Shown here one piece after another: positions 43,183 to 62,656 of a DNA stretch of 64,000 bases. Both the position numbers and the translations under genes were made by a program. Origin of the DNA: Atopobium sp. oral taxon 416 (GTDB lineage: Bacteria; Actinomycetota; Coriobacteriia; Coriobacteriales; Atopobiaceae); the NCBI RefSeq assembly GCF_018128285.1, contig NZ_CP072380.1:744001-808000 (forward strand), written 5' to 3'. Every line of letters begins with the position of its first letter. Within the stretch, counting starts at the first letter, position 1. Below the pieces are notes generated by a model. The model was not told the DNA's origin, did no database searches, and saw nothing but the letters and a program-made list of their open reading frames with translations.

Positions 43183-45489
43183 TCAGGAGAGCTCGGCGCG
43201 GACCTTGTGCGCAGCAGCCACGAGGTTCCTGAGGCTTGCCACCGTCTCCTTTGTGCCTCTCGTCTTGAGGCCGCAGTCGGGGTTCACCCAGAGCTTCTCT
43301 TTCGGGATGTGCTTGAGCATGCGGTGGAGAGCATCGACGATCTCTTCCTTGGAGGGCACACGCGACGAGTGGATGTCGTAGACGCCGGGGCCGACTTCGG
43401 TCCTGAAGCCTGCTTCTGTGAGGCTCTTGAGGATCGAGAGGTTCGACCGCGATGCCTCGAACGTGATCACGTCGGCATCCATCTCGTCGATCTCATGGAT
43501 GATGTCAGAGAACTCGCTGTAGCACATGTGGGTGTGGATCTGTGTCTCAGGCTTCACGCCGCTATGGACGAGGCGGAAGGCGGGAATGGCCCAGTCGAGG
43601 TATTCCCTGTGCCAATCGCTCCTACGTAGCGGCAGCTTCTCGCGCAGGGCTGCCTCGTCGATCTGGATGATGCGGATGCCTGCACGCTCGAGATCGAGGA
43701 CCTCGTCGCGGATAGCAAGGGCGATCTGGAACGCACTCTCGCGGCGCGGGATGTCCTCGCGTGGGAAGGACCAGTTCAGGATCGTGACGGGTCCGGTCAG
43801 CATGCCTTTCACGGGCTTGTCCGTGAGGCTCTGCGCATAGGTGCTCCAGCCGACCGTAATGGGATGGCTGCGCCAGATGTCTCCCCAGATGATGGGAGGC
43901 TTCACGCAGCGCGTGCCGTAGGACTGGACCCAGCCGTTGTTCGTGAAGAGAAAGCCTTCGAGATTGTCGCCGAAGTACTCGACCATATCGTTGCGCTCGT
44001 ACTCGCCGTGCACGAGGACATCGAGACTGAGCTCTTCCTGCAGCTTGATACAGTCGGCAATCTTGCCCTTGATGAACTCGTCGTACTGTTCCTCGGAGAT
44101 CTCGCCTTTTCTTTTGGCCCTGCGGCTTGCGCGCACATCGCTCGTCTGGGGGAAGGAACCGATCGTCGTGGTCGGGAGAAGCGGCAGTCCCAGCTCTCGG
44201 TGCTGGATTTTCTCGCGCTTGGCGAAGGCGGGTGTGCGGTGGAAGCTCTCCTCGGTGAGGGTGGCAAGGCGCTCGCGCACAGCCTTGTTCGGTGCTGCGT
44301 GCCCTTCATGGAAGAGTGCATCGTTGGCAGCGAGGGCAGGGTCGGATGCCGGACTGCTGAGCAGCCCTTTTACGCTCGTGCCGTTGCCTACCGCACGGTC
44401 CAGGATGACGTGGAGCTCATTCAGCTCTGCAAGCTTTTCCTCGGCGAAAGCGAGATGCTTCAAGCAGTCAGGTTCGAGCTGGGTTTCGGCAGATGTGGTG
44501 TAGGGCACATGCAGAAGCGAGCAGCTTGTGGAGAGCACAACCTTGCTGTCAGGTGCAAGGCTCTTCAGATGCGAGAGGGCTTGACGGTAGTTCGTGCGCC
44601 AGATGTTCTTGCCGTTCACGATGCCGGCGAAGAGGACGGTATCTTTTGGGAAGCCGGACGAGACGAGCTCGTCGGTCTTCGTGCCTTCGACGAAGTCGAG
44701 ACCGATGCCGTCGAAGCCGAGCTTCGTGACAGTCCCATAGACATCGCGGATGTCGCCGAAATAGGTCTGAAGCAGGATCTTGCAGCTGTGCTTTTGGTTC
44801 AAGAGGGTGCGGGCGATCTTCACGAAGAGCATCTCATCCTCTTTGCTGATGTCATGTACGAGCCAGGGCTCGTCGAGCTCGAGCCAGGCACCTTCTGGTA
44901 CGAGCGCCAGAAGCTTCGCATAGACAGAAGCAATCTTTTTTGCCCATACGTTCTCGTCGGCACCCTCGGGTAGCTGGGCGAGTTTCAGGAACGTGAAAGG
45001 GCCCGTGACAGAGATCTTGAGCTGTTCTGCTGCAAGCCCCGCAGCACGTGCTTCTCCGATCTGGCCACGCAGGGCATCCGGCACGAGGTGAAGCTCCATG
45101 CTTTCTTCGAGTTCGGGTACGAGATAGTGATAGTTCGTGTTGAACCACTTCTTCATTGCGAGGGCATGCACATCGCCGCGCGTGCCCTGGTAGCCATGAG
45201 CCATAGCGAAATAGGTATCGAGGGCATCGAGGCCGAGCTTTTGGTAGCGCTCCGGTACGGCGCCGAGCATCATGGCCGCATCGAGGACGTTGTCGTAGAG
45301 CGAGAAGTCGCCTACCGGTACAAGGTTGAGCCCGCACTCGAGCTGCACGGTGCGGTTCTCGGCTCTGAGCCTGGCTGCCTCTGCGGCAAGCTTGTCCTTG
45401 CTGAGCTGCCCCTTGAAGTAGGCTTCTTCCGCCCGCTTGAGTTCGCGGTTTTGTCCGATGCGGGGATATCCGACTATAGTCGTCTTCAT
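43183..45489 (-). CDS. metE: Cobalamin-independent methionine synthase
   Basis: A 768-residue zinc enzyme transferring a methyl group from 5-methyltetrahydrofolate (polyglutamate) to homocysteine. The N-terminal domain begins TTIVGYPRIGQNRELKRAEE. The catalytic C-terminal barrel shows IHTHMCYSEFSDII (His and Cys zinc ligands), TFEASRSNLSILKSL and NPDCGLKTRGTKE (last Cys ligand). Length is normal. It is monocistronic. Its substrate homocysteine could come from the thiocarboxylate-type sulfur genes at 56-59 kb. Confidence 0.96.
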   Translation of the reverse strand: MKTTIVGYPRIGQNRELKRAEEAYFKGQLSKDKLAAEAARLRAENRTVQLECGLNLVPVGDFSLYDNVLDAAMMLGAVPERYQKLGLDALDTYFAMAHGYQGTRGDVHALAMKKWFNTNYHYLVPELEESMELHLVPDALRGQIGEARAAGLAAEQLKISVTGPFTFLKLAQLPEGADENVWAKKIASVYAKLLALVPEGAWLELDEPWLVHDISKEDEMLFVKIARTLLNQKHSCKILLQTYFGDIRDVYGTVTKLGFDGIGLDFVEGTKTDELVSSGFPKDTVLFAGIVNGKNIWRTNYRQALSHLKSLAPDSKVVLSTSCSLLHVPYTTSAETQLEPDCLKHLAFAEEKLAELNELHVILDRAVGNGTSVKGLLSSPASDPALAANDALFHEGHAAPNKAVRERLATLTEESFHRTPAFAKREKIQHRELGLPLLPTTTIGSFPQTSDVRASRRAKRKGEISEEQYDEFIKGKIADCIKLQEELSLDVLVHGEYERNDMVEYFGDNLEGFLFTNNGWVQSYGTRCVKPPIIWGDIWRSHPITVGWSTYAQSLTDKPVKGMLTGPVTILNWSFPREDIPRRESAFQIALAIRDEVLDLERAGIRIIQIDEAALREKLPLRRSDWHREYLDWAIPAFRLVHSGVKPETQIHTHMCYSEFSDIIHEIDEMDADVITFEASRSNLSILKSLTEAGFRTEVGPGVYDIHSSRVPSKEEIVDALHRMLKHIPKEKLWVNPDCGLKTRGTKETVASLRNLVAAAHKVRAELS

Positions 45490-50152: not shown

Positions 50153-51670
50153 CTAAAGCCTGAACTGGGCGCTCTTCCAGCGCGCTGCTTCGCGCTCGTC
50201 GATGTCTACTCTTGCCATGCAGAAGTCGGCATATCTCGCTTCGGCGCTGCTGCCTTCGGGTATGCTGTTGCCGTCTGGATCGATGCCTTCCACTGCCGTG
50301 GGGCTACAGGTCTCGCTCGAGGCGCCGGGCACGCGGAAGGTGTTCATGTTCAGAGGCTCAATGCTTGTCTCTTCTGGCTTCTCGAGCTGCGGCACCCAGG
50401 AGTAGGGGATGCGGTAGGTGCGGTAGACCATGTTCGTCGAGAAGCCAGGCGCGAATTCCCTCGTATAGGGATTGATGAATTCCCAGACGATCTCATGGTT
50501 CGGCGTGACCTCGATGATGCGGCCATCGGAGCCTTCGGTGATGAGGGTATTGCCGCTCTCGAGGCGCTGGGCGCTTGAGATATAGGAGGAATAGAATTTC
50601 GATCCGTCGGAGAAGGGCATGAACCCTGCTTTGACCGGCGTGTATTCCCATACGACGTCGAAGGTCACGGGGTCGAATTCGAGGACACGCGAATAGTCTC
50701 GCCTCACCGCGCTCACGCCGTCGGGAGACATCGCGTTGGGTGCATCGTAGCCGGCCGTGCCGCCATTGTCGAAGACGAGGAGATTGCCGGCACCGGGAAG
50801 TCTCTCAGGAATCATGTGCAGGTGGTGCTGGCCGATGATGCAGCCGAGCTTCTTTGCGCCTTCGCTGGCATTCGGTCTAGCGTAGTCGGGGCCGACCTGC
50901 CAGACAATCTTTCCAGTCTTCTTCGAGATGATCGCAAGGATATTGGCATTGCGGGAATCGAAGATGATGTTCTTTGGGTCGAAGCGCTCGTCCCCTGCAT
51001 CGAAGAAGCGGTTCGGTCCGAGGTAAGAGATGCTGTTCACGTGCAGCCAGTCGCCGCCTGCCGTGCCCCTCATGGCAGGATTGGCACGCAGTGCCTTCTT
51101 GGCAGCCTCGGAGAATCCAAATTCCTCGAAGTGGTCTGCGCAGCGCCACTCCCAGAGGATCTTGCCGTCCCAGCTGACCTCGACGATCTTGTCGTCGATC
51201 AGGAGCTTGTCCGAGATCTCGGGCTTCAGCGTGTTCTCGTGGGTCAGGATGAGAGTCCTGTCGTTGAAAGCGCTTGGCTCCTGGCCAGGTGCATAGTAGC
51301 CGACAGGCGACCCTTCGAGCTGGAAGTCATGGTGCTGCCGTACCATCCATCTCGGCTCTGTGCCCTCATCCTCCACGAGCTCGGTATGGTCCCACTTCCA
51401 GACGATCTTCCCATGCCAGTCGACTTCGATAAGGTCGAGCTAGTCCTGGTAGGCAGCCTCTCCTGTGTGCCTGCCCGAGCTGCCGAAGACATAGCCGCCT
51501 GGTGTCATCTTTGCTGGGAAGCCCTGGAGGCCTGCCCAGCAGCGGACCTCGCGCCCGTTCATATCGATGAGGAGGACACCCTTGGAGATGGGGAAGAGCG
51601 TATAGCCGCTCCAGGCATGGTCCTTATCGAAGATGGTGACGCCGGTCGGATAGATGGATGGGTATCCCAT
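50153..51670 (-). pseudogene. Arylsulfotransferase (ASST-like), one amber codon
   Basis: The start is ATG 51670 (GGAG upstream). The frame gives YPSIYPTGVTIFDKDHAWSG and GKVLLIDMNG-like text, then a TAG at 51440-51442 (codon 77, between AAYQD and LDLIEVDWHGKIVWKWD). It then runs on unbroken to 50153: PRWMVRQHHDFQLEGSPVGY, GDWLHVNSISYLG and IGQHHLHMIPERLPGAGNLL, typical of the beta-propeller arylsulfotransferase family with its conserved His. No signal peptide is visible. It would transfer sulfate between phenolic compounds and fits the adjoining sulfur genes. Confidence 0.8.
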
Positions 51671-51758
51671 GGCTGCTCCTGTTCTCTGCATGTATTGGGG
51701 GGATGCTCAGCCTGGCTGCCCTGAAAGCAGAAACCTGCTGAATGTCATTGTCGGCATT

Positions 51759-51916: not shown

Positions 51917-54430
51917 ATGCTGGGACGCAATGTGCATACAGCACAGCGGACATTCACGCGCAGAGAGGCCCTCGAGGGCATGGGAGCCTGTGCCATGATG
52001 CTGGCTCTCCGGATGCGGCGCCGGTGCACTTGCCGAAGCGGCATCCTCTGGCAGCAGCGCCTCCGCCTCCTCCTCTGCAGGCGGGACCGTCAGGATTGGC
52101 TTCCCTTCGAGCGGACAGAGCTTCGATGCGGCAACGCCGCTTGGCATAGCGGAAAGCAAAGGACACTTTGCGACCTACCTCGAACCTCTGGGCTATACGG
52201 TCGAGACGTCGAGCTTCGTGGGGCAGCTCCTGCGCTTCATGAGGCACTGATTTCGGGGGACCTCGACCTGGTGGACTATGCCGGCTTTGCCGGCATCCTC
52301 GGCAAGTCGAAGGGCATCGATACGACAGCTATCGCCGTCACGCAGTGGGGCTCGGGCTAGTCGCTTGCCGCGGCTCCGGATATCGCCTCCATCGCAGACC
52401 TCAAAGGAAAGAAGGTTGCCTATCAGCGCGGAGCGACACCACAGATGTTCCTCATCAAGGTCCTCGCAGAAGGCGGCCTCACGTCTGACGATGTGGAGGC
52501 CGTGAATGCGACCGGGCCTGATGGACTCTCGTCGCTTTCGGCCGGTGCTGTCGCGTCCACCGTCTGCTCGTCGGGACAGGAGCAGAGCCTTGTCTCCCAG
52601 GGCCTTGCCGAGGCGCTTTTCCATGGCAGGGATGGAAATCCTTCCATCTACTTTGAGCCGTTCACGCTCGTGGCCAGGACCCTGTGGCTGAAGGAGAACG
52701 CAGACGCTGCCGTTGCGGTGCTCAAGGCCTATCTCTGAGCCCTGTCAATATAATGGACAGAGAAATCTCAGATTCTATGCGGTCTGCATCGCCTTTGGAT
52801 CGTATGCAAGGCCTCTCTCGAAACGCTCGAAGAACTCCTGCATCACCTCTTCCGGCACGCGATCTCCTATGGACTTATGCGGGCGGAAGCGGTTGTAGTA
52901 CGACTCGATTAAACTCGTGTGCCTTGTGCTTGGTCGTGGATGCATCGAAGAGGCGCTTATGGTAGTACCACTCGTTCTTGAGCGTGGCGAAAAGCGATTC
53001 GGCGAGCGCATTGTCGTGGCAGCTTCCGGTTCTCCCCACGGAGAGCCTCACGTCGTGCGCGGCTGAGCAGGCGGCTAGCTTTGAGCTTATGTACTGGCTG
53101 CCTGGGCTGCTTAGAATATGGCCCCTCCGGCCACGTATCCGCGCGAATATGCCATCTTCAGGGCAAAGACGACAAGCCCTGCCCTCATGTTGTCCTGTAT
53201 GCTTCAGCCCACCACCATGTGTGTGCACAGATCGTGTGCGACGGTAAGATATATAAAGCCTGCCGTGGTCCTGCGATAGGTTGTGTCTCCCACGAGCTTG
53301 GCTGTCGGCACAAGACACGAGAAGCCGCGCCGGGTGAGGTCGGGGCGCTCGGGGGTATCAGGTGCGGGCAGTATCGTTCTCTTGGAGGCATTGGATCAGA
53401 TGCCGCCTATCCCAGTTCAGCCATGCACCTGCGCACGCGGTAGCGGGTCGTGCCTGTAAATTTTGCGTAACTTTGGATCTCCTGTGAGCTTGGATCAGAC
53501 CTAGCAAAAGCTAAAGCGCCTGTCGCTTTCCTCCCATATCGCGCAGATGGCTTCCTTGATAGGACCCCATAGGTCCTCACCGCCTTTGGCCTTGAGCCAT
53601 CTGTAGAAGTGAGCCCTGCTCACCTCCAGTACGCGCGCCATCATCGAGACGCTGTAGGTTGCCCTCTTTGCCAGCATGAGCTAAAACCTGTCCTTCAACA
53701 GAGGCTTCCGGCGAAGAAGGCTGCCTCTTTTTTAGGAACTTATTTTCGCTTTCGAGCTCGTGTATGCGCCTGTTGGCCCTGTCGAGCTGCTTGTGCACCT
53801 CGGTCCTTGCCTGGGTCACCCTTTTGGTCTTTGAGTGCTTGATGATCCAGTCGTTTAAGGTCTTGTCGTTGGCCTCAAGCTTCGCGGCGCATCCTTTGAT
53901 GCTCTTCTTCGGGTTGGCCTTACGTGCCTTCCTGTAGTAGTCGATAGCCTCGAGGCAATACTTCCTCAGTGTAGTGTTTGGGTGTTTCCGGCTTCGTGCG
54001 GGACTTTGCCTTCTCTATCTCGCTTGCGCTCACCGACATCTCATCTCTTCAATCTGCTGGTGTTGGTAGGTGGGTATCTGGACAGAGCATATCTGTTGCC
54101 AGTCCCTGAATCCCACTGTCCACCAAAAGATTACAGCTCAAGGCCTATCTCGCCGCCAAGGCAGAGATGGTGGCAGACCCTGATGCCTTCATCTCCTACG
54201 CTGCCGCACAGTCGGGACAGAGCGAGGATATGGTCAGGTCCTGGCAGGACTTCGACGACTTCGGCGCGAACTATCCGCTGAGCTTCGATGGCACCTATCT
54301 CGATGCGCTCTCGAGCATCCAGGACTTCGAAGTGGAAAACGACATCATCGCCGAGGAGATCGACATCGCTTCCTGGACAGATTCCTCCTACCTCGAGCGT
54401 GCCCAGCAGGAATTTGGAAATGGGGACTAG
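51917..54430 (+). pseudogene. ssuA: Sulfonate/nitrate-type ABC binding protein, multiply disrupted
   Basis: GGAAGGAGA precedes ATG 51917. TFTRREALEGMGACAMMLAL leads, after a frameshift, into SGCGAG (a lipobox-like Cys) and VRIGFPSSGQSFDAATPLGI. A second shift returns to PALHEALISGDLDLVDYAGF, then a TAG (52358-52360), SLAAAPDIASIADLKGKKVA, and at LKAYL the IS3 copy 52736-54140. The end, AAKAEMVADPDAFISYAAA to QQEFGNGD, lies after it. At least four lesions, so no function, although the permease and ATPase genes behind it are intact. Confidence 0.88.
52736..54140 (-). mobile_element. IS3-family element, copy 2, inside ssuA
   Basis: A 1405-base copy nearly identical to 4494-5902, with the same ends (TGAGCCCTGTCAATATAATG; TGAGCTGTAATC inverted). 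OrfA (IHELESENKFLKK) and OrfB (YSVSMMARVLEVSRAHFYRWL, then TGSCHDNALAESLFATLK) are shifted and stopped. It is flanked by an 11-base direct repeat AGGCCTATCTC (52725-52735 and 54141-54151), longer than the 3-4 bases usual for IS3. Confidence 0.88.
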
Positions 54431-54432
54431 CT

Positions 54433-55206
54433 GTGAAAAAGAAGGTCCTTCATTTCCTCGAGATGCTGATTCTGCCTGCCCTGATCCTCGTGCTGTGGCA
54501 GTGGGCAACTGTCTTGGGGGCCGTGCCTGCAATCGTGTTGCCGACTCCTGCTGCCGTCGTATCCTCCATCGTCTCGCAGCTTGCCTTGGGCAGGCTCGAG
54601 AACGATGTTGCAATCAGCGTCTCGCGCATCCTCAAAGGCTATGCGCTTGCGGTCGTCTTCGGTCTTGCCTTCGGTGTCACGATGGGCATGAGCGAGCACG
54701 TAAACCGCTTCTTTGGAGGCCTCTTCAAGGCAATCCGCCAGATCCCGATGATTGCCTGGGTGCCTCTTCTTGTCATGTGGTTCGGTATCGGCGAGGAGTC
54801 GAAGGTGGCTGTGATCTTTATCGCTGCCTTCTTCCAGATTCTGCTCAATACGATCAGCGGTATCCAGCGCACGGACAAGAAGCTCGTCGAAGTCGGAAAG
54901 ATGTACCAGCTCTCGAAATGGCATCTGTTTCGCGAGATCTATCTGCCAAGTGCGCTTCCTTCGATTTTCGTCGGCCTTAAGTTTGGCCTTTCTGTCTCGT
55001 GGATGGCTGTCGTCGGCGCAGAGATGATTGCAGCGAGCTCCGGCATCGGCTTCCGCATCAACGACGCGAGAGCGCTGCTTAACTATCCGGTCGTCTTCTC
55101 CGGCATGATCGCGATTGCCGTCGCCGGTGTCCTCATGGACCTGATTCTTTCTGCCATCGCAAAGGGCTGCATGCCCTGGGAAAGGGGCGAGAAGCATGCC
55201 TCATAA
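54433..55206 (+). CDS. ssuC: Sulfonate-type ABC transporter permease
   Basis: A 257-residue permease of the SsuC/TauC/NrtB family, with about six helices. The EAA-loop is seen in KLVEVGKMYQLSKWHLFREI, YLPSALPSIFVGLKFGLSVS. AIRQIPMIAWVPLLVMWFGI and GEESKVAVIFIAAFFQILLN are typical. Starts with GTG two bases after the ssuA stop and overlaps ssuB by 11 bases. Taurine or other aliphatic sulfonates are likely substrates, but thiamine-precursor transporters look similar. Confidence 0.88.
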   Translation: MKKKVLHFLEMLILPALILVLWQWATVLGAVPAIVLPTPAAVVSSIVSQLALGRLENDVAISVSRILKGYALAVVFGLAFGVTMGMSEHVNRFFGGLFKAIRQIPMIAWVPLLVMWFGIGEESKVAVIFIAAFFQILLNTISGIQRTDKKLVEVGKMYQLSKWHLFREIYLPSALPSIFVGLKFGLSVSWMAVVGAEMIAASSGIGFRINDARALLNYPVVFSGMIAIAVAGVLMDLILSAIAKGCMPWERGEKHAS

Positions 55207-55966
55207 GCTGAGCATCCGAGGTGTGAGCAAGTCGTTTGCTGCCTCGTCGGGCACGCTTTCCGTGCTCGAGGATATCGACCTTTCCGTGGCAGACGGCGAG
55301 CTCCTCGTGATCGTCGGCCACAGCGGCTGCGGCAAGTCGACGCTTCTGAAGAACATCGCTGGCTTCGAGGAACCGACGAAAGGCGAGATCCTGCTCGACG
55401 GGAAGAAGATCACAGGCCCCGGCCCTGACAGGACCATGATCTTCCAGGAGCACAGGCTCTTCCCGTGGATGACGATAGAGGAGAACGTCGCGTTTGGGCT
55501 CCATGACCGTCCGAAGGCAGAGCGCGGGGACCTTGTTCGGAGCTACCTTTCGCTCGTACAGCTCGAAGGCTTCGAGGAATCCTATCCCCATGAGCTCTCG
55601 GGCGGCATGAGCCAGCACGCTGCGATCGCACGGGCGCTTGCAACGAAGCCTGAGGTGCTGCTGCTCGACGAGCCGTTCGGCGCCCTCGATGCGCTCACGA
55701 AGATGGGCCTCCAGGACGAGCTCCTTTCCATCCGCGACCGCGAGAAGACGACCATGGTCATGGTCACGCACGATATCGAGGAGGCGGTCTATCTCGCTGA
55801 TCGCATCGTCGTAATGACCGAACGTCCCGGAAAGATCGCGGAGATCGTGCCGATTGAGCTCGGGCGTCCGCGCGACCGTGGCAGCGCCGACTTCGCCTGG
55901 TACCAGAAGCGGATTCTTTCCCACTTCGTGAAGCCGAAGGAGAAGCAGCTCGACTACGTGATCTAG
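55196..55966 (+). CDS. ssuB: Sulfonate-type ABC transporter ATPase
   Basis: A 256-residue ATPase: Walker A GHSGCGKST, Q-loop IFQEHRLFPWMTI, signature LSGGMSQHAAIARAL, Walker B VLLLDEPFGALDALTK, H-loop VTHDIEEAVYLADR. The signature MSQHAAIARA differs from the usual MRQRVAIARA (His replacing the Arg/Val pair), an unusual change. RIVVMTERPGKIAEIVPIEL is the standard C-terminal strand of this subfamily. Coupled to ssuC by overlap. Confidence 0.92.
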   Translation: MPHKLSIRGVSKSFAASSGTLSVLEDIDLSVADGELLVIVGHSGCGKSTLLKNIAGFEEPTKGEILLDGKKITGPGPDRTMIFQEHRLFPWMTIEENVAFGLHDRPKAERGDLVRSYLSLVQLEGFEESYPHELSGGMSQHAAIARALATKPEVLLLDEPFGALDALTKMGLQDELLSIRDREKTTMVMVTHDIEEAVYLADRIVVMTERPGKIAEIVPIELGRPRDRGSADFAWYQKRILSHFVKPKEKQLDYVI

Positions 55967-56278
55967 GAGCACATCATGAAGTGGGATGCATCTTCGGGCC
56001 GGAGGCTCTAGTCTTCCTCTCTGTCGGCCCATCTCTTGCCGCTGACCTCATGGCGCCCGCCATAGCGGCGGCATATGGAGCATGCATGCCATTGCATCCG
56101 ATCTGCATCTGTTCCTTCCGATGGGGGTTGCTGACCATCAGCCTTCTATATAGGAAACGATGAATTCAGCAATCTGTCGAAGCGATAGCCAAGCATAGGA
56201 AAGAGGTAGTAGAGGCAGTCCCTTCAGGCGCATATACTGAACTTTATGACCAGCTCTGGGTTGGAGAGGAGCAAGGAC
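55967..56278 (+). promoter_or_regulatory. Gap before the sulfite-reductase operon, with shared element
   Basis: No gene is seen in these 312 bases. AATTCAG (56163-56169) and GGAAAGAGGTAG (56198-56209) repeat, with identical spacing, the element in front of ssuA. GAGAGGAGCAAGGAC ahead of 56279 is the ribosome-binding site for the reductase. Confidence 0.5.
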
Positions 56279-57211
56279 ATGGCAAAGATCGACAATGCCG
56301 CGCTCAAGAAGGGCGGCTTCATGGCACAGAAGCAGAAGGGGCTCTACTCGCTGCGCCTCCATATCACGGCAGGGCATCTGACGTCGCGTCAGCTTATCGG
56401 CATCTCCAAGGTGGCAGACACCTTTGGCCACGGCTACGTCCATCTGACAAGCCGTCAGGCCATCGAGATTCCCTTCATCAAGGTCGAGGACGCAGACGCC
56501 GTGAAGGCGATGCTGGCTGAGTACGGCGTCGAGCCAGGCTGCTGCGGTGCCCGTGTGCGTACGGTCACAGGCTGTCAGGGATCGGCTGTCTGCCCCTCGG
56601 GCAACATCGACTCCTATCGGGTAGCCACGATGCTCGACGAGCGCTACTTCGGACGCGACCTTCCCGGCAAGTTCAAGTTCGGTGTCACGGGCTGCCAGAA
56701 CAACTGCCTGAAGGCCGAAGAGAACGACTTCGGCATCAAGGGCGGGCGCAAGGTCCAATGGAAGCCTGATGCCTGCATACACTGCGGCATCTGCTCGAAG
56801 GTTTGTAAGTCCCAGGCCATTACGGATGATGGGGAGAAGATCGTCGTCGACTATGCGAAGTGTGTCTCCTGCGGCAAGTGCTCGCAGAAGTGCCCGGTCG
56901 ACTCGTGGGACTACCAGACGGTCTACAACCTCACATTCGGCGGCCTCTTCGGCAACCACATAACGAAGGGCAGGAAGATCCTACCGCCGGTCGAGTCCGA
57001 TGAGCAGCTGCTCGCTGTCGCCGATGCGACGGTCCAATGGTACGACGACCACGCGATTGCAAGCGACCGCTTCAAGTTCTGTCTTGACCGCGAGGGATGG
57101 GAGAGCTTCGTCCCTGTGGTCAGGAAGGCCTACGACGAGGCAGCACCTGAGGGCTGTCCCAAGGCGGATTCCGTAGAGGTCGAGCCGCCGACACCGACGG
57201 CACAGCAGTAA
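56279..57211 (+). CDS. Siroheme sulfite reductase with ferredoxin domain (AsrC/DsrA-like)
   Basis: A 310-residue protein. VHLTSRQAIEIPFIKVED is the siroheme-reductase repeat. TGCQGSAVCPSG (CxxxxxC) and GVTGCQNNCLKAEENDFGIK (CxxxC) bind the siroheme-coupled 4Fe-4S cluster. CIHCGICSKVC and CVSCGKCSQKC are two ferredoxin clusters near residues 165-210. It resembles anaerobic sulfite reductase subunit C and small nitrite/sulfite reductases, reducing sulfite to sulfide. No AsrA/AsrB partners are in the window. I chose ATG 56279 over 56246 because of its ribosome-binding site. Confidence 0.88.
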   Translation: MAKIDNAALKKGGFMAQKQKGLYSLRLHITAGHLTSRQLIGISKVADTFGHGYVHLTSRQAIEIPFIKVEDADAVKAMLAEYGVEPGCCGARVRTVTGCQGSAVCPSGNIDSYRVATMLDERYFGRDLPGKFKFGVTGCQNNCLKAEENDFGIKGGRKVQWKPDACIHCGICSKVCKSQAITDDGEKIVVDYAKCVSCGKCSQKCPVDSWDYQTVYNLTFGGLFGNHITKGRKILPPVESDEQLLAVADATVQWYDDHAIASDRFKFCLDREGWESFVPVVRKAYDEAAPEGCPKADSVEVEPPTPTAQQ

Positions 57212-57221
57212 GGAGAGAGCA

Positions 57222-57476
57222 ATGGCACAGGAGCCATATGAAGTCGCAGATACCGTCGATATCACGAATCTGGTGTGCCCGATGACCTTCGTGACGGCGA
57301 AGGCAGCGCTCGCCGAACTCGAGATAGGCGAAGTGCTGCGGGTGCATCTCGCGGCAGGCGAGCCGATGGAAAACGTGCCGAGGAGCTTTGCTGACGACGG
57401 GCAGAAGGTGCTTGCCCTGAAGGAAGCAGACGATGGCGCCTACGATCTCGATGTGAAGAAGCTCGAAGACGAATAG
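57222..57476 (+). CDS. TusA/SirA-family sulfurtransferase-like protein
   Basis: An 84-residue protein with the TusA-type motif NLVCPMTFVTAKAALAEL, where the Cys followed by Pro carries persulfide in the family, and the VHLAAGEPMENVPRSF strand region. It lies 10 bases after the sulfite reductase and 37 before the ThiS-like gene, so it may relay sulfur or supply reducing sulfur to the carrier. That role is inferred from order. Confidence 0.85.
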   Translation: MAQEPYEVADTVDITNLVCPMTFVTAKAALAELEIGEVLRVHLAAGEPMENVPRSFADDGQKVLALKEADDGAYDLDVKKLEDE

Positions 57477-57513
57477 CGCATATCGGTACCTTGGATAGGC
57501 AGGAAGGATAGCC

Positions 57514-57720
57514 ATGAACATCACAGTGGGCGGAGAGAAGAGGAGCGTGCCCGAAGGGGAGACCATAGGTGCGCTCATCAAGGACGAGAAGGTGGAGAAC
57601 GCGGACTATGTGACCGTAGCCGTGAATGAGGTCTTCATCGACCACAAGGACTTCGCAGCGACCAAGCTCTCCGAAGGCGATACGGTCGAGTTCCTCTATT
57701 TCATGGGTGGAGGCCGCTGA
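57514..57720 (+). CDS. ThiS/MoaD-like sulfur carrier with Gly-Gly-Gly-Arg tail
   Basis: A 68-residue ubiquitin-fold protein: VPEGETIGALIKDEKVENAD, VTVAVNEVFIDH, LSEGDTVEFLYFMGGGR. True ThiS and MoaD end in Gly-Gly; here one Arg follows the glycines, so the tail must be trimmed before adenylation. A JAMM protease two genes downstream could do that. This fits thiocarboxylate carriers of the HcyS or CysO kind rather than thiamine ThiS. The next gene starts one base after the stop. Confidence 0.88.
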   Translation: MNITVGGEKRSVPEGETIGALIKDEKVENADYVTVAVNEVFIDHKDFAATKLSEGDTVEFLYFMGGGR

Positions 57721-57721
57721 G

Positions 57722-58549
57722 ATGGCATTCTCACCTGACGAGCTCGAGCGCTATTCCCGCCATATTATCTTGAAGGAGGTTGGCGTCAAGGGCCAGAAGA
57801 AGCTCTGTGCTGCCAAGGTCCTCATCATCGGTGCTGGCGGCCTCGGCGCTCCGGCTGCACTCTATCTGGCTGCAGCAGGCGTCGGCACCCTGGGCATCGT
57901 CGATGCAGACGAGGTCGAGCTCTCGAACCTCCAGCGCCAGATCATCCACGGCACCTCGGATATCGGCAAGCCGAAGGTGGAAAGCGCCGCAGAGACCCTG
58001 CACGATATCAACCCCGGCGTGAATGTCGTGACGTACCGCGAGTTCGTCGACTCCTCGAACATCGCTGACCTCATCGCCGACTATGACTTCGTTATCGACG
58101 GCGTCGACAACTTCCCGACGAAGTTTCTGATCAATGATACCTGCGTGATGGGGAAGAAGCCGTTCGTGCATGCGGGCATCATACGCTTCAAGGGCCAGCT
58201 CATGACCTACGTGCCGGGAGAGGGACCGTGCTATCGCTGCGTGTTCCGCGATATGCCTCCTGCGGATGCCGTGCCGACCTGCAAGCAGGCCGGCGTCATC
58301 GGCGCTCTTGCTGGCGTCATAGGCTGCCTCGAGGCGCTTGAGGCCATAAAATATATCTGCGGCATAGGCGAGCTTCTGACGGGAGGGCTCCTTACGTTCG
58401 ATGCGCTCAAGGGAGACTTCCACACGATCAAGCTGCCACCACGAGATTCGAACTGCCCGGTCTGCGGCGACCATCCGACCGTGACTGAGCTCATCGACTA
58501 CGAGCAGCCGTCCTGCGTGCTTGCGCAGCATGGCACGGCGCTCACCTGA
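57722..58549 (+). CDS. E1-like adenylyltransferase (ThiF/MoeB/HesA family)
   Basis: A 275-residue enzyme. VLIIGAGGLGAPAALYLAAA is the ATP-binding Rossmann motif, GIVDADEVELSNLQRQIIHG follows with the Asp that binds magnesium, and YRCVFRD and SNCPVCG are the two CxxC-type zinc sites (CYRC and CPVC). VPTCKQAGVIGALAGVIGCL contains a Cys positioned like the catalytic Cys. It adenylates the Gly-Gly end of the neighbouring carrier so that sulfide can replace AMP. Start ATG 57722, one base after the carrier stop. Confidence 0.92.
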   Translation: MAFSPDELERYSRHIILKEVGVKGQKKLCAAKVLIIGAGGLGAPAALYLAAAGVGTLGIVDADEVELSNLQRQIIHGTSDIGKPKVESAAETLHDINPGVNVVTYREFVDSSNIADLIADYDFVIDGVDNFPTKFLINDTCVMGKKPFVHAGIIRFKGQLMTYVPGEGPCYRCVFRDMPPADAVPTCKQAGVIGALAGVIGCLEALEAIKYICGIGELLTGGLLTFDALKGDFHTIKLPPRDSNCPVCGDHPTVTELIDYEQPSCVLAQHGTALT

Positions 58550-58559
58550 GAGGAGAGGC

Positions 58560-58979
58560 ATGCTCCATCTGAGCGGAGACGATTTCCACAAGATGGCAGA
58601 GTGGGCACGAGAGCATATGCCCGAGGAAGCCTGCGGCCTTCTGGCCGGCTATCGCGACGAGGAAGGAGATGCCTTCGTCGAGCGTGTCTTCATCTGCGAG
58701 AATGCCGACCACACCTCAGAGCACTTCACGATTTCGCCCCAGGAGCAGTTGAAGGCTCTGAAGGAAGCTCGCAGCTCCGGCATGGAGATCTTGGGCAACT
58801 GGCATTCGCATCCGGAGACTCCGGCACGTCCTTCTGCGGAAGACCTGAGGCTTGCCCAGGACCCTTCTGCCCTCTACTGCATCCTCTCGCTCGAAGATCC
58901 TGCCTGGCCGGCACTCGTCGCCTATCGCAAGGATGCGGACGGAAATGTTGCAAGGGTGCTGGTGAGCCATGACGCGTGA
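58560..58979 (+). CDS. JAMM/MPN+ metalloprotease (Mec/HcyD type)
   Basis: A 139-residue zinc protease. HMPEEACGLLAG holds the catalytic Glu, and NWHSHPETPARPSAEDL holds HxHP-x(7)-S-x(2)-D, the complete JAMM motif. In other bacteria such enzymes trim ubiquitin-like sulfur carriers or release the amino acid after sulfur transfer. AGGAGAGG before 58560 defines the start. It overlaps the chelatase gene by 11 bases. Confidence 0.92.
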   Translation: MLHLSGDDFHKMAEWAREHMPEEACGLLAGYRDEEGDAFVERVFICENADHTSEHFTISPQEQLKALKEARSSGMEILGNWHSHPETPARPSAEDLRLAQDPSALYCILSLEDPAWPALVAYRKDADGNVARVLVSHDA

Positions 58980-59751
58980 GGGACTCGTCTTTGCAAGCTA
59001 CGGGACGCTCGTAGATGAGGCGAGGCAGAGCGACATTGCCCCGGTCGCCGAAGCGCTGAAGGGCGCCTTTCCGGAGGATGCCTTTGCTGAGGTCTATACA
59101 AGCGCCTGGGTAAGGGAGCATCTCGCGAAGCGTGGCATTGCCTCCACAAGCCTCGGTGAGGCGCTTGTCTCTCTTGCTGATGAAGGCGTCATGCATGCCA
59201 CGGTCCAGCCAGGGCTCATCGTCTGCGGCGATGCGTGGGACAAGCTTGCAGCGGAGGCAGCAGCGCTCGCTGGACGCTTTCCGGAAGGGCTTTCTCTCGG
59301 ACGTCCGCTTCTGGCAGATGATAGAGACCAGAAAGAGGTCGCTTTCGTCATCGCCGAGGCATTCCCTGCACGTCCTTCCCATGCATTCGTGCTTGTAGGA
59401 CATGGGACAAGAGAGGCGGCAGATGCCGCCTACACAGGCGTCGTCTGGGCGCTCCACGAGGCAGGACGCATCGACTTTGCCCTTGGCCCCATGGAGGGCG
59501 CGCCCGATCCGGACGAGGCAGCGAATAAGCTCGTACGCAATGACACGCATTCGGTTACAATTGTCCCGCTCATGCTCACGGCAGGAAGCCATGTGCGCCG
59601 CCAGCTTGCGGGAGAGGGCGCGGCAAGCTGGACATCGCGCCTGAGCGCGGCCGGCATTGCCACGGATTGCACGCTGGCGGGCCTTGGCTCCCTGCCGGGT
59701 GTGAGTGCCATCTTTGTCCGCCATGCACGGGAAGCCGAAGCTATCCGCTGA
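58969..59751 (+). CDS. cbiK: CbiK-type sirohydrochlorin chelatase
   Basis: A 260-residue chelatase. ASYGTLVDEARQSDIAPVAE matches the CbiK N-terminus, and FVLVGHGTREAADAAYTGVV has the metal-binding His followed by Gly-Thr; THSVTIVPLMLTAGSHVRRQ carries the second His. CbiK inserts cobalt or iron into sirohydrochlorin. Next to a siroheme enzyme, iron insertion to make siroheme is the likelier job here. The last ~45 bases are followed by a metal ABC transporter. Confidence 0.85.
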   Translation: MTREGLVFASYGTLVDEARQSDIAPVAEALKGAFPEDAFAEVYTSAWVREHLAKRGIASTSLGEALVSLADEGVMHATVQPGLIVCGDAWDKLAAEAAALAGRFPEGLSLGRPLLADDRDQKEVAFVIAEAFPARPSHAFVLVGHGTREAADAAYTGVVWALHEAGRIDFALGPMEGAPDPDEAANKLVRNDTHSVTIVPLMLTAGSHVRRQLAGEGAASWTSRLSAAGIATDCTLAGLGSLPGVSAIFVRHAREAEAIR

Positions 59752-59806: not shown

Positions 59807-60817
59807 ATGCTGAATGACAGCCGTCTTGTGCGTCCTGCTGCGGTGGCAGCCACGCTTCTGCTCGCCTCGAGCCTTGTGGCGCTTCCTGCCTGCAGCCAGA
59901 CCACGTCTTCCACATCCTCGACGGACACTGCCTCGTCGAGTGCATCCACGGCAGAGGCCGACAGCGTCACGTTCACGGACGACCTGGGACGCGAAGTCAC
60001 GGTCTCGAATCCGCAGCGCGTCGTTGCCTGCATGGGTTCCTTTGCCGGAGCCTGGCAGCTTGCAGGCGGCACGCTCGTCGGCGCTTCCGATGATGCCTTT
60101 GCGCACTACGGCGTCGATTCCTCGGCCGTTTCTGGTGTCGGCAGGTCGACCGCGCTCAATCTTGAGTCCATCCTCGACCTCGATCCCGATTTTGTCATCA
60201 TGACCGGCATCTCTGACGGCAAGCACTCGACGGGCGTCTCGCAGGAGGACATGGAGTCCTCGCTCGACGAGGCAGGTGTGCCGCTTGCCTTCTTCAAGGT
60301 CACGACGTTTGCCGACTACGAGCGCATGATGGGGATCTTCTGCCAGATCACGGGCAGGGACGACCTCTACCAGAAGAACGTGACCGATGTGAAGAGCCAG
60401 ATCGACGAGGACATCAAGACCTACTCTGTTGCCGACAAGGCACCGACCGTGCTCGTCGTGAGCGCCTACTCGAAGGGCCTTGTTGTGCAGAATTCTACGG
60501 GCATGACAGGAGCGATCGTGAAGGATCTTGGCGGCGTGAATATCGCAGACGAGAATCCGAGCCTTCTTTCCGACTTCAGCCTCGAGGCAGCGGTCGAGGC
60601 GGACCCTGACTACATCCTTGTGCTCGCCGCATCCGACGACGAAGCGACAGCGCAGAAGTACTATGAGGATGCGGTCGGCTCCGATTCTGCCTGGGCAGAC
60701 ATGACCGCCGTGAAGGAAGGGCGTGTCACGATGCTCGATGCAGCGCACTTCCTCTACAAGCCGCTCGACAAATGGGCCGAGTCCTATGAGATCGTGGGCC
60801 AGGCGCTCAGCAAGTAG
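59807..60817 (+). CDS. Iron-type ABC transporter substrate-binding lipoprotein
   Basis: A 336-residue periplasmic-binding-like lipoprotein: AATLLLASSLVALPAC lipobox, a Ser/Thr-rich linker, then VTFTDDLGREVTVSNPQRVV (classical FecB/BtuF start), NLESILDLDPDFVIMTGISD and WADMTAVKEGRVTMLDAAHF. Family members bind siderophores, heme or cobalamin. ATG 59807 is preferred as it starts a signal peptide. The GKHSTG and FLYKPLDKW segments suit a siderophore or metal complex; ligand unknown. Confidence 0.9.
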   Translation: MLNDSRLVRPAAVAATLLLASSLVALPACSQTTSSTSSTDTASSSASTAEADSVTFTDDLGREVTVSNPQRVVACMGSFAGAWQLAGGTLVGASDDAFAHYGVDSSAVSGVGRSTALNLESILDLDPDFVIMTGISDGKHSTGVSQEDMESSLDEAGVPLAFFKVTTFADYERMMGIFCQITGRDDLYQKNVTDVKSQIDEDIKTYSVADKAPTVLVVSAYSKGLVVQNSTGMTGAIVKDLGGVNIADENPSLLSDFSLEAAVEADPDYILVLAASDDEATAQKYYEDAVGSDSAWADMTAVKEGRVTMLDAAHFLYKPLDKWAESYEIVGQALSK

Positions 60818-60819
60818 GG

Positions 60820-61869
60820 ATGGCTGTGGGCATAACGCATCAGCATGAGAAGAAGGCAGCAGGGGCAAGAAGCATGCGCTTCGGTGCCCTTGCTGCCATC
60901 TCTTTTGCCGTTCTCCTTCTTGCCATGCTTCTGGGCCTTGTCTTCGGTGCTTCCGGCGTCGGTGTGGGTGACGTCTGGACGCTTGTAGCAGGAGGAGACC
61001 CACCTGCGAAGGCGAGAAACATCCTCGTCTCGATCCGCATTCCCCGCGTACTGGCAGGTGTCCTGGCAGGCGCTGCCTTCGCGGTATCCGGTGCCCTCAT
61101 CCAGGAGGTGCTCGACAACCCGCTTGCAAGTCCGAACATCATTGGTGCGAACTCGGGCGCAGGACTCGCCATGCTCACCGTGAGCGCGCTGGCAACGGTC
61201 GGTATCACGGTGCCGCTGCCGCTTCCGGCGGCAGCCTTTCTGGGTGCCCTTCTTGCGTCGGCGCTGATCCTTCTTGTTTCGGCCCGTACCGGAGTCTCGC
61301 GGTTCACGGTCGTCCTTGCCGGCGTCGCCGTGAATGCGGTCTTCGGGGCCGGCATGAATGCGGTCTTGATCATCGCACCGAATTCCTATGTCGGCTCCTC
61401 ATCCTATCTCGTGGGCGGACTTTCCGGCATCGTGCTTTTCGATCTCGGGCTTCCTGCCCTCTTCATCGCGCTCGGCCTTGCTTTGGCCCTCATCCTGGCG
61501 CCCCGGCTCAACGTGCTTGCCCTTGGCAGCCAGACGGCGCATGCGCTCGGCGTGCCCGTGCGGCTCCTGCGGGTAGCAGGCCTGACCGTTGCCTCGCTTC
61601 TGGCGGGTGCTGCCGTGAGCTTCTCGGGCCTCATCGGCTTCATCGGCCTCATGGTACCCCATGTGGCAAGACGCTTTGTCGGGCGTGACCTGAAGCGCGT
61701 CATTCCGATCTCTGCTGTCTGGGGTGCGGCATTCACGGTGCTCTCCGACCTTCTGGCACGCACGCTCTTTGCGCCTTATGAGCTGCCGGTGGGGATACTC
61801 ATGGCGCTTGTCGGCGGGCCCTTCTTCGTCTTTCTGCTCATGAAGGGAAAGGGATACCGCGATGAGTGA
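60820..61869 (+). CDS. FecCD-family ABC permease
   Basis: A 349-residue permease with about ten helices. RIPRVLAGVLAGAAFAVSGA, NPLASPNIIGANSGAGLAML and SGLIGFIGLMVPHVARRFVG are the signature loops of the FecCD/BtuC family. It begins 2 bases after the lipoprotein stop and overlaps the ATPase gene by 8 bases, forming a three-gene importer. Confidence 0.94.
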   Translation: MAVGITHQHEKKAAGARSMRFGALAAISFAVLLLAMLLGLVFGASGVGVGDVWTLVAGGDPPAKARNILVSIRIPRVLAGVLAGAAFAVSGALIQEVLDNPLASPNIIGANSGAGLAMLTVSALATVGITVPLPLPAAAFLGALLASALILLVSARTGVSRFTVVLAGVAVNAVFGAGMNAVLIIAPNSYVGSSSYLVGGLSGIVLFDLGLPALFIALGLALALILAPRLNVLALGSQTAHALGVPVRLLRVAGLTVASLLAGAAVSFSGLIGFIGLMVPHVARRFVGRDLKRVIPISAVWGAAFTVLSDLLARTLFAPYELPVGILMALVGGPFFVFLLMKGKGYRDE

Positions 61870-62656
61870 AAACGTGCTCGCGTTCAGGGACATCTCGTTC
61901 GGCTATGGGGAGCGGAAGCTCTTCGAGGGCTTCTCTCTTGCCATTCCCGAAGGCGGTATCACGGCCGTGCTCGGCCCGAATGGCTGCGGCAAGTCGACGC
62001 TCTTTTCCCTGGCAGAGGGGATGCTGAAGCCCTCTTGCGGCACAGTCCTGCTCTCGGGTACCGATACGCATGCGCTCTCTCCGAAGGAGCGGGCGGGACT
62101 CATCGCGATGCTGCCGCAGGTGCACAGAACCCCGTCCATGAAGGTAAGAGACCTGGTAGCCTGCGGCCGCTATGTGCACATGGGACCTTTCGGCCAGCTC
62201 GATAAGGCTGACTGGGACAAGGTCGACGAGGCCATCTACTTGATGGGCCTGGACTCTCTGGCAGAGAGGAATGCGAGAAAGCTCTCGGGCGGCGAGCGCC
62301 AGCGGGCGTTTCTTGCAATGACGGTCGCTCAGGGAGCGCGCACGCTTCTGCTCGACGAACCGACGACCTATCTCGATGTGAGGGCAGCGCACGACCTCAT
62401 GGCGCTCGTGAGAAAGCTGGCTGGGGATAAGGGCATCACCGTCATCTGCGTGATCCACGATGTGGATCTGGCTCTGCGCTTCTCGGATAGTATCGTCGTT
62501 CTGGGAAGCGAGCGGCCGACCTGCCTTCTTTCCACAGGGACACCGGATGCAATTGCAGAAAGCACGGTACTCGCTTCTTCTCTCGGTGTGCGGGCGAAGC
62601 GCTTCAGCGATGGCGGGGAGACAGCCTATGGTATATTTCCTGCCAACAGGGCATAA
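61862..62656 (+). CDS. Iron-type ABC transporter ATPase
   Basis: A 264-residue FecE/FepC-like ATPase: Walker A GPNGCGKST, LPQVHRTPSMKVRDLVACGR (Q-loop), LSGGERQRAFLAMTVAQGAR, Walker B LLLDEPTTYLDVRAAHD, H-loop CVIHDVDLALRFSD. It energises uptake with the permease. Gene order directly behind cbiK suggests supply of iron (or cobalt) for siroheme-type cofactors. Confidence 0.94.
   Translation: MSENVLAFRDISFGYGERKLFEGFSLAIPEGGITAVLGPNGCGKSTLFSLAEGMLKPSCGTVLLSGTDTHALSPKERAGLIAMLPQVHRTPSMKVRDLVACGRYVHMGPFGQLDKADWDKVDEAIYLMGLDSLAERNARKLSGGERQRAFLAMTVAQGARTLLLDEPTTYLDVRAAHDLMALVRKLAGDKGITVICVIHDVDLALRFSDSIVVLGSERPTCLLSTGTPDAIAESTVLASSLGVRAKRFSDGGETAYGIFPANRA

Follow-up and report, generated by a model that had tools for sequence, protein, structure and literature searches.

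We found that a six-gene operon of Atopobium sp. oral taxon 416 probably encodes an assimilatory sulfur module of the HcyS/CysO type, in which a small ubiquitin-fold protein would carry sulfur derived from sulfite; we put the probability of this assignment at about three in four. The operon occupies positions 56279-59751, on the plus strand, of the 64,000-nucleotide stretch analyzed here (the window; positions 744,001 to 808,000 of contig NZ_CP072380.1), and comprises, in order, genes for a siroheme-type sulfite reductase (SIR), a TusA-family protein, a ThiS-like sulfur carrier, an E1-like adenylyltransferase, a JAMM metalloprotease, and a CbiK-family chelatase (Table 1). The first-pass annotation, made from the letters of the window, had described six tightly packed or overlapping genes, and coordinates and Pfam families confirm each one. 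The gaps from SIR through TusA, carrier, and E1 to JAMM are 10, 37, 1, and 10 bp, and the last two genes, JAMM and CbiK, share 11 bp. Pfam E-values were 4.5e-27 for the reductase (NIR_SIR, plus Fer4), 4.2e-16 for TusA, 7.4e-12 for the carrier (ThiS), 1.6e-87 for the E1 (ThiF), 5.4e-26 for the JAMM protein (Prok-JAB), and 2.3e-41 for CbiK. The order is common to three other genomes at protein identities of 44 to 96% and is therefore not due to chance, and we regard the operon as confirmed, with all six genes in place. The assignment to a sulfur module rests on these genes and their motifs, the conserved order, the complement of the genome, and the adjacency of MetY in relatives.

Of 197 Coriobacteriia genomes searched with the E1, 10 matched at 1e-40 or lower. 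Four of these carry the six-gene order with CbiK: the genome to which the window belongs (hereafter the own genome), G194, G157, and G096. Across these four Olsenella-group genomes the E1 is 87 to 96% identical. Two further genomes (G075 and G129; loci L028 and L029) have SIR-TusA-JAMM-ThiS, then a cysteine-synthase-family gene and the E1, and in L028 (6375-11256) the E1 is followed by one ORF matching both SirC and SUMT profiles. For the other four, only the E1 was found in the stretches viewed (3.3-16 kb; the G121 contig measures 3.3 kb). When named genomes were scanned for the reductase, 43 loci were found, three of them from the Olsenella group (L038, L039, and L040, corresponding to G194, G096, and G157) and 40 from Firmicutes, Treponema and other spirochaetes, Succinivibrionaceae, metagenome-assembled genomes (MAGs) labelled Deltaproteobacteria, and one labelled planctomycete. 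The operon core recurs, rearranged, in these other gut phyla.

Because automatic gene calling gave antisense ORFs in GC-rich loci, we counted neighbors within 6 kb of SIR by running profiles derived from these loci against every frame of the 43 loci and of the window; many loci end at contig edges, and the counts are lower bounds. The profiles were named from their sequences, with Pfam agreeing for SUMT-HemD, HemB, HemC, HemA, and SirC and placing HemL, AprA, AprB, and TrxB only in general families. Among the 40 other loci, TusA was found in 32, E1 in 29, ThiS in 26, JAMM in 24, and MetY in 15, followed by SirC and AprA (11 each), SUMT (10), Trx (9), CysD and CysN (8 each), HemC (6), TrxB (5), HemB, FeBP, and SBP (4 each), and FecC (3). 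All four Olsenella-group loci (the window, L038, L039, and L040) have TusA, ThiS, E1, JAMM, CbiK, FeBP, and FecC, two of the four have MetY and Trx, and none has a Hem, SUMT, SirC, Apr, or Cys gene within that distance. A thioredoxin-like gene sits between TusA and ThiS in L039 (11239-11556), L041, L044, and L049 and is absent from that place in the window and L038; some Firmicutes have a TrxB-like gene 3' of JAMM.

The encoded proteins retain their motifs across these loci. Twelve cysteines of the reductase are each conserved in 44 of 44 sequences, and its best match among solved structures is 7np8, an F420-dependent sulfite reductase (4.4e-33, over residues 344-612 of 620). In the reductase tree, the Olsenella group forms a single clade, whose branch is long (1.26) and stems from an open fork, so that no donor can be named. 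TusA keeps C14, P15, and T17 in 36 of 36 sequences, and the JAMM protein, which matches 2kks (3.2e-34), keeps E23, H82, H84, S92, and D95 in 28 of 28. The E1 (275 amino acids) matches MoeB 1jw9 at 8e-58 and has C170, C173, C245, and C248, each present in 32 of 33; ThiF is its sole Pfam family above cut-off, and no C-terminal rhodanese domain was found. The closest solved structure to the carrier is 2k5p, a ThiS (1.9e-12).

The C termini of 33 carrier matches were compared, one of which (in L079) was spoiled by Ns. EFLYFMGGG was found in 28 of the 33, EFLYYMGGG in L074, and EIVCFMGGG in two thiamine-side copies (L061 and L064); the L028 and L029 carriers end in LAGG plus two residues. Beyond GGG come one to four residues that differ between loci (R, C, Q, A, SR, AR, AA, QV, SAA, QAL, AWH, or AAWL), or 11 in L054. 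In L058 and L074, the ThiS glycines run into the E1 in one continuous frame; L074 also has the JAMM gene, and L058 stops at a contig edge. Judged from these sequences, the short dissimilar tails after MGGG and the ThiS-E1 fusions fit processing by a protease that frees the glycines at the end of the carrier. The sulfite-to-sulfide-to-carrier logic of the first-pass annotation is supported, as is a short tail beyond the glycines, beside a JAMM gene.

The own genome (one contig, 3.0 Mb, 98.24% complete) contains the remaining parts of a route from sulfate to methionine, scattered over the chromosome. The minus strand at 2.43 Mb carries genes for AprA, a ferredoxin-like AprB, CysD, CysN, and an operon-type MetY. 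A chromate-transporter-family gene, whose product may carry sulfate, is directly 3' of this MetY (L027, 5225-6763). Elsewhere we found the intact conventional MetY (451 amino acids; 0.115 Mb) and CysK (1.33 Mb), which the first-pass annotation had suggested looking for; an intact MetA (2.91 Mb), with scores below both the acetyl- and the succinyl-type NCBIfam cut-offs; and, at 1.69 Mb, a reductase of the AsrC type (482.9 bits, the cut-off being 324.1). MetE, previously placed about 11 kb away, is 10.8 kb from the operon.

A carrier of this family could instead serve thiamine or molybdenum cofactor synthesis, and the carrier does exceed the NCBIfam thiS cut-off (60.9 versus 37.45 bits). In Mitsuokella (L061, 4783-11118), moreover, a thiamine pyrophosphate (TPP) riboswitch precedes ThiS, ThiG, a radical-SAM BATS protein, and ThiE, after which comes a second ThiS with E1, JAMM, SIR, and TusA. 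The complement of the own genome speaks against such a role. The operon carrier is its single ThiS-family match, its ThiF-family matches are the operon E1 and, at 2.16 Mb, two pieces that lie in different frames, and MoaE gave no match there (a control matched in 11 of 14). Two weak partial ThiG matches (28.7 bits, with the Pfam cut-off at 23, and 20.7 bits) turned out to be PdxS-family and nitronate-monooxygenase-family proteins, and no ThiG was found in this genome. We therefore rejected the thiamine and molybdenum cofactor roles for the own genome, where they are very improbable. The first-pass annotation had named a full thiamine pathway with no other ThiS/ThiF as an observation that would refute a homocysteine/cysteine role, and by these searches the role withstands that test.

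The pathway that we propose would begin with CysDN and AprAB, which would convert sulfate to sulfite, and continue with the operon reductase, which would convert sulfite to sulfide. JAMM would cut off the carrier tail behind the glycines, the E1 would adenylate the exposed C terminus, and sulfide, either free or as a TusA persulfide, would yield the carrier thiocarboxylate. A MetY-type enzyme would then pass the carrier sulfur to O-acylhomoserine, JAMM would free homocysteine, and MetE would methylate it. We infer each of these chemical steps, as well as the accepting enzyme in this strain, and we consider the odds of a TusA relay to be roughly balanced. The choice of MetY as acceptor, one of the two types named by the first-pass annotation, draws support from its position immediately 5' of SIR in L039 and L040 and from its presence near SIR in the other loci counted above.

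Several observations weigh against this assignment. The operon-type MetY of the own genome contains a frame change and a TAG that break it, which leaves the sulfur acceptor in this strain uncertain, and no remnant of MetY was found between SsuB and SIR in the window; the intact MetY or CysK could also take up sulfide in free form, with no need of a carrier. Eight of the 40 other loci have no TusA and 14 have no ThiS within 6 kb of SIR, which partly reflects contig ends. The L060 carrier has no glycines (MGAAADGFLQ; 11444), though E1 and JAMM follow it, and the Mitsuokella arrangement means that the module may serve thiamine in other organisms.

The broken MetY could also mean that the operon mainly reduces or detoxifies sulfite, with sulfide passing freely to the intact conventional MetY and CysK and with the carrier genes left as relics. 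We consider this unlikely, since the carrier, E1, and JAMM genes are intact, the E1 is highly conserved in all four genomes, and an AsrC-type reductase is already encoded elsewhere. Similarly improbable is that the E1, carrier, and JAMM protein tag other proteins in a SAMP- or ubiquitin-like conjugation, with JAMM as the deconjugase and possibly alongside sulfur transfer. The E1 scored 324.9 bits on the SAMP-activating E1 model (cut-off 450) and the JAMM protein 74.7 on the desampylase model (cut-off 130), both below cut-off, whereas no E2-like gene was present among the families searched at the locus, and the conserved neighbors are SIR, TusA, MetY, and AprAB-CysDN.

The proposed sulfur module resembles known systems. 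CysO, Mec, and CysM of Mycobacterium are a carrier, a JAMM protein, and a pyridoxal phosphate-dependent acceptor, respectively; L028 and L029 compare with these in having a cysteine-synthase-family gene between ThiS and E1, whereas the Olsenella-group operon has no such acceptor. In Wolinella, Krishnamoorthy and Begley reportedly described in 2011 a pathway in which JAMM trims a short tail, with an E1, a sulfite reductase, and a MetY acceptor. The Olsenella-group loci resemble the Wolinella HcyS pathway in a short carrier tail beside a JAMM gene, the E1, the sulfite reductase, and, in L039 and L040, a linked MetY, and they add CbiK. The L039 MetY scored 294 bits against 3ri6, which we take to be the Wolinella MetY, and 334 bits against 7kb0, so 3ri6 is not its closest solved relative; the broken MetY of the own genome is 48% identical to the L039 protein and 34% identical to the intact own MetY.

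The HcyS/HcyD/HcyF/MetY pathway of Wolinella succinogenes is cited in PMC6225789 and PMC5764234. Iyer, Burroughs and Aravind (2006; PMC1779556) had already described ThiS-JAB-E1-SirA-sulfite reductase-O-acetylhomoserine (OAH) sulfhydrylase operons as a class, and in row 4e of their Table 1, which includes Wolinella (Wsuc), the operons always contain SirA (TusA). Row 4e combines a ThiS/MoaD-like protein, JAB, a rhodanese-less E1, SirA, sulfite reductase, OAH sulfhydrylase, and sulfate activation under the same predicted logic. The window has carrier, E1, and JAB together, the rhodanese-less E1, SirA/TusA, and sulfite reductase, and linkage to OAH sulfhydrylase is seen in L039 and L040; unlike in row 4e, the own genome has MetY, in its broken copy beside CysDN, and AprAB-CysDN split off. 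The CbiK and FecB/C/E genes of the Olsenella group are not in row 4e, nor do its abbreviations, as we read them, include any Coriobacteriia. The mechanism, TusA included, was therefore already in print, and the earlier view that TusA makes this a new machine is not supported. The description of the operon as self-contained is wrong as well, because sulfate activation, adenosine 5'-phosphosulfate reduction, and MetY are encoded elsewhere and no SUMT was found. The core sulfur-carrier idea is right but already published; the new part is CbiK with no SUMT found. Neither this arrangement nor the ThiS-E1 fusions were found described in the literature searched, as title-level listings, and the consulted portion of PMC1779556 mentions fusion of ThiS to sulfite reductase, not to E1.

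CbiK accompanies SIR, within 6 kb, in all four Olsenella-group loci and in none of the 40 others. The protein exceeds the Pfam cut-off (142.3 versus 26.2 bits) and falls under the NCBIfam cobaltochelatase cut-off (126.5 versus 400 bits); it belongs to the same family as CbiK 1qgo and 2xvx, presumably the Salmonella and Desulfovibrio enzymes, and FetB 9b86. We take the metal ligands of Salmonella CbiK to be Glu89, His145, and His207. All four Olsenella-group proteins keep both conserved histidines and lack the glutamate, its column reading Ala, Ala, Ser, and Thr in the window, L038, L039, and L040, and QPGL stands in place of QSLH. From these sequences, a role as siroheme chelatase is plausible.

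All four genomes encode a siroheme-type reductase, and a further enzyme of this kind is present in the own genome. The SUMT-containing family PF00590 had one match in each of them (controls matched 14 of 14), and all four matches exceed the NCBIfam cut-off for the 16S rRNA methyltransferase RsmI (TIGR00096; 184-228 versus 167.9 bits). The siroheme-committing methyltransferase SUMT was therefore not found in any of the four genomes by the PF00590 search. Roughly a quarter of the other loci have siroheme genes close to the reductase. A HemA-SirC-HemC-SUMT-HemB-HemL block adjoins it in L056, L057, L059, and L077 and, partly reordered, in L066. Where these lineages keep the block, the Olsenella group has CbiK and a FecB/C/E-type transporter.

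A CbiK gene in the operon with no SUMT found suggests, but does not prove, uptake of a siroheme precursor. On this reading these bacteria would salvage siroheme instead of making it. The transporter may import sirohydrochlorin or a related tetrapyrrole from gut neighbors, and the altered-site CbiK may insert or exchange the iron for SIR, in which case these genes would replace the block kept by some lineages. We offer this salvage scheme tentatively and think it has the lesser chance of being right. SUMT and SirC have a FecB/FecC-type pair as neighbor in L045 and L046 (by Pfam on L045), so the transporter could supply iron only. No paper on siroheme salvage was found in the literature searched (title-level listings), which does not prove that none exists.

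The transporter genes (59807-62656) continue the run 55 bp 3' of CbiK; neither they nor the upstream SsuC/SsuB pair appeared in the first-pass annotation. Upstream of SsuC (52300-54430), a sulfonate-type binding-protein gene, whole in L040, is fragmented, with a transposase-type integrase piece (rve_3) between. An arylsulfotransferase gene (ASST; 50153-51691, minus strand) is split over two frames; in L040 it is a single 535-amino acid frame divergent from the transporter, and a link to sulfate esters is possible. A riboswitch search gave no Rfam match in the window or L038-L040. Sixteen more loci, 15 of them with the operon and one the own-genome stretch L025, gave six tRNAs, one cobalamin riboswitch (L071, well 3' of the operon), and the TPP riboswitch of L061. 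Promoter and terminator scans were near shuffle level (4 versus 2.1 and 6 versus 4.4), with one terminator-like site between SsuB and SIR (56130-56142).

Table 1. Genes of the sulfur-carrier operon and neighboring features of the window
Feature	Position	Strand	Remarks
Siroheme-type sulfite reductase (SIR)	56279-57211	+	Two ferredoxin-type cysteine motifs; best solved match, F420-dependent sulfite reductase, C-terminal half
TusA/SirA-family protein	57222-57476	+	Conserved CPxT
ThiS/HcyS-like ubiquitin-fold sulfur carrier	57514-57720	+	C terminus FLYFMGGG plus one Arg
E1-like adenylyltransferase (MoeB/ThiF family)	57722-58549	+	No rhodanese domain found
JAMM/JAB metalloprotease	58560-58979	+	Motif residues present
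CbiK-family chelatase	58969-59751	+	His145 and His208 kept; residue 89 is Ala
FecB-type binding protein	59807-60817	+	Nearest NCBIfam model IsdE, 67.4 bits against cut-off 298.65
FecC/FhuB/BtuC-type permease	60820-61869	+	
FecE-type ATPase	61862-62656	+	
SsuC/TauC-type permease	54433-55206	+	Upstream in 3 of 4 Olsenella-group loci
SsuB/TauB/nitrate-type ATPase	55196-55966	+	
MetE, cobalamin-independent methionine synthase	43183-45489	minus	10.8 kb from operon

These results would add Olsenella-group bacteria, along with many gut and rumen MAGs, to the organisms with a carrier-based sulfur pathway. The ThiS-E1 fusions, whose glycine end would need to be cut free, provide a natural test of JAMM processing. 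The own genome also presents a concrete gap, with two siroheme-type reductases and a chelatase and no siroheme-committing enzyme detected; if siroheme precursors are indeed shared between gut microbes, sulfite reduction in these bacteria would depend on their neighbors.

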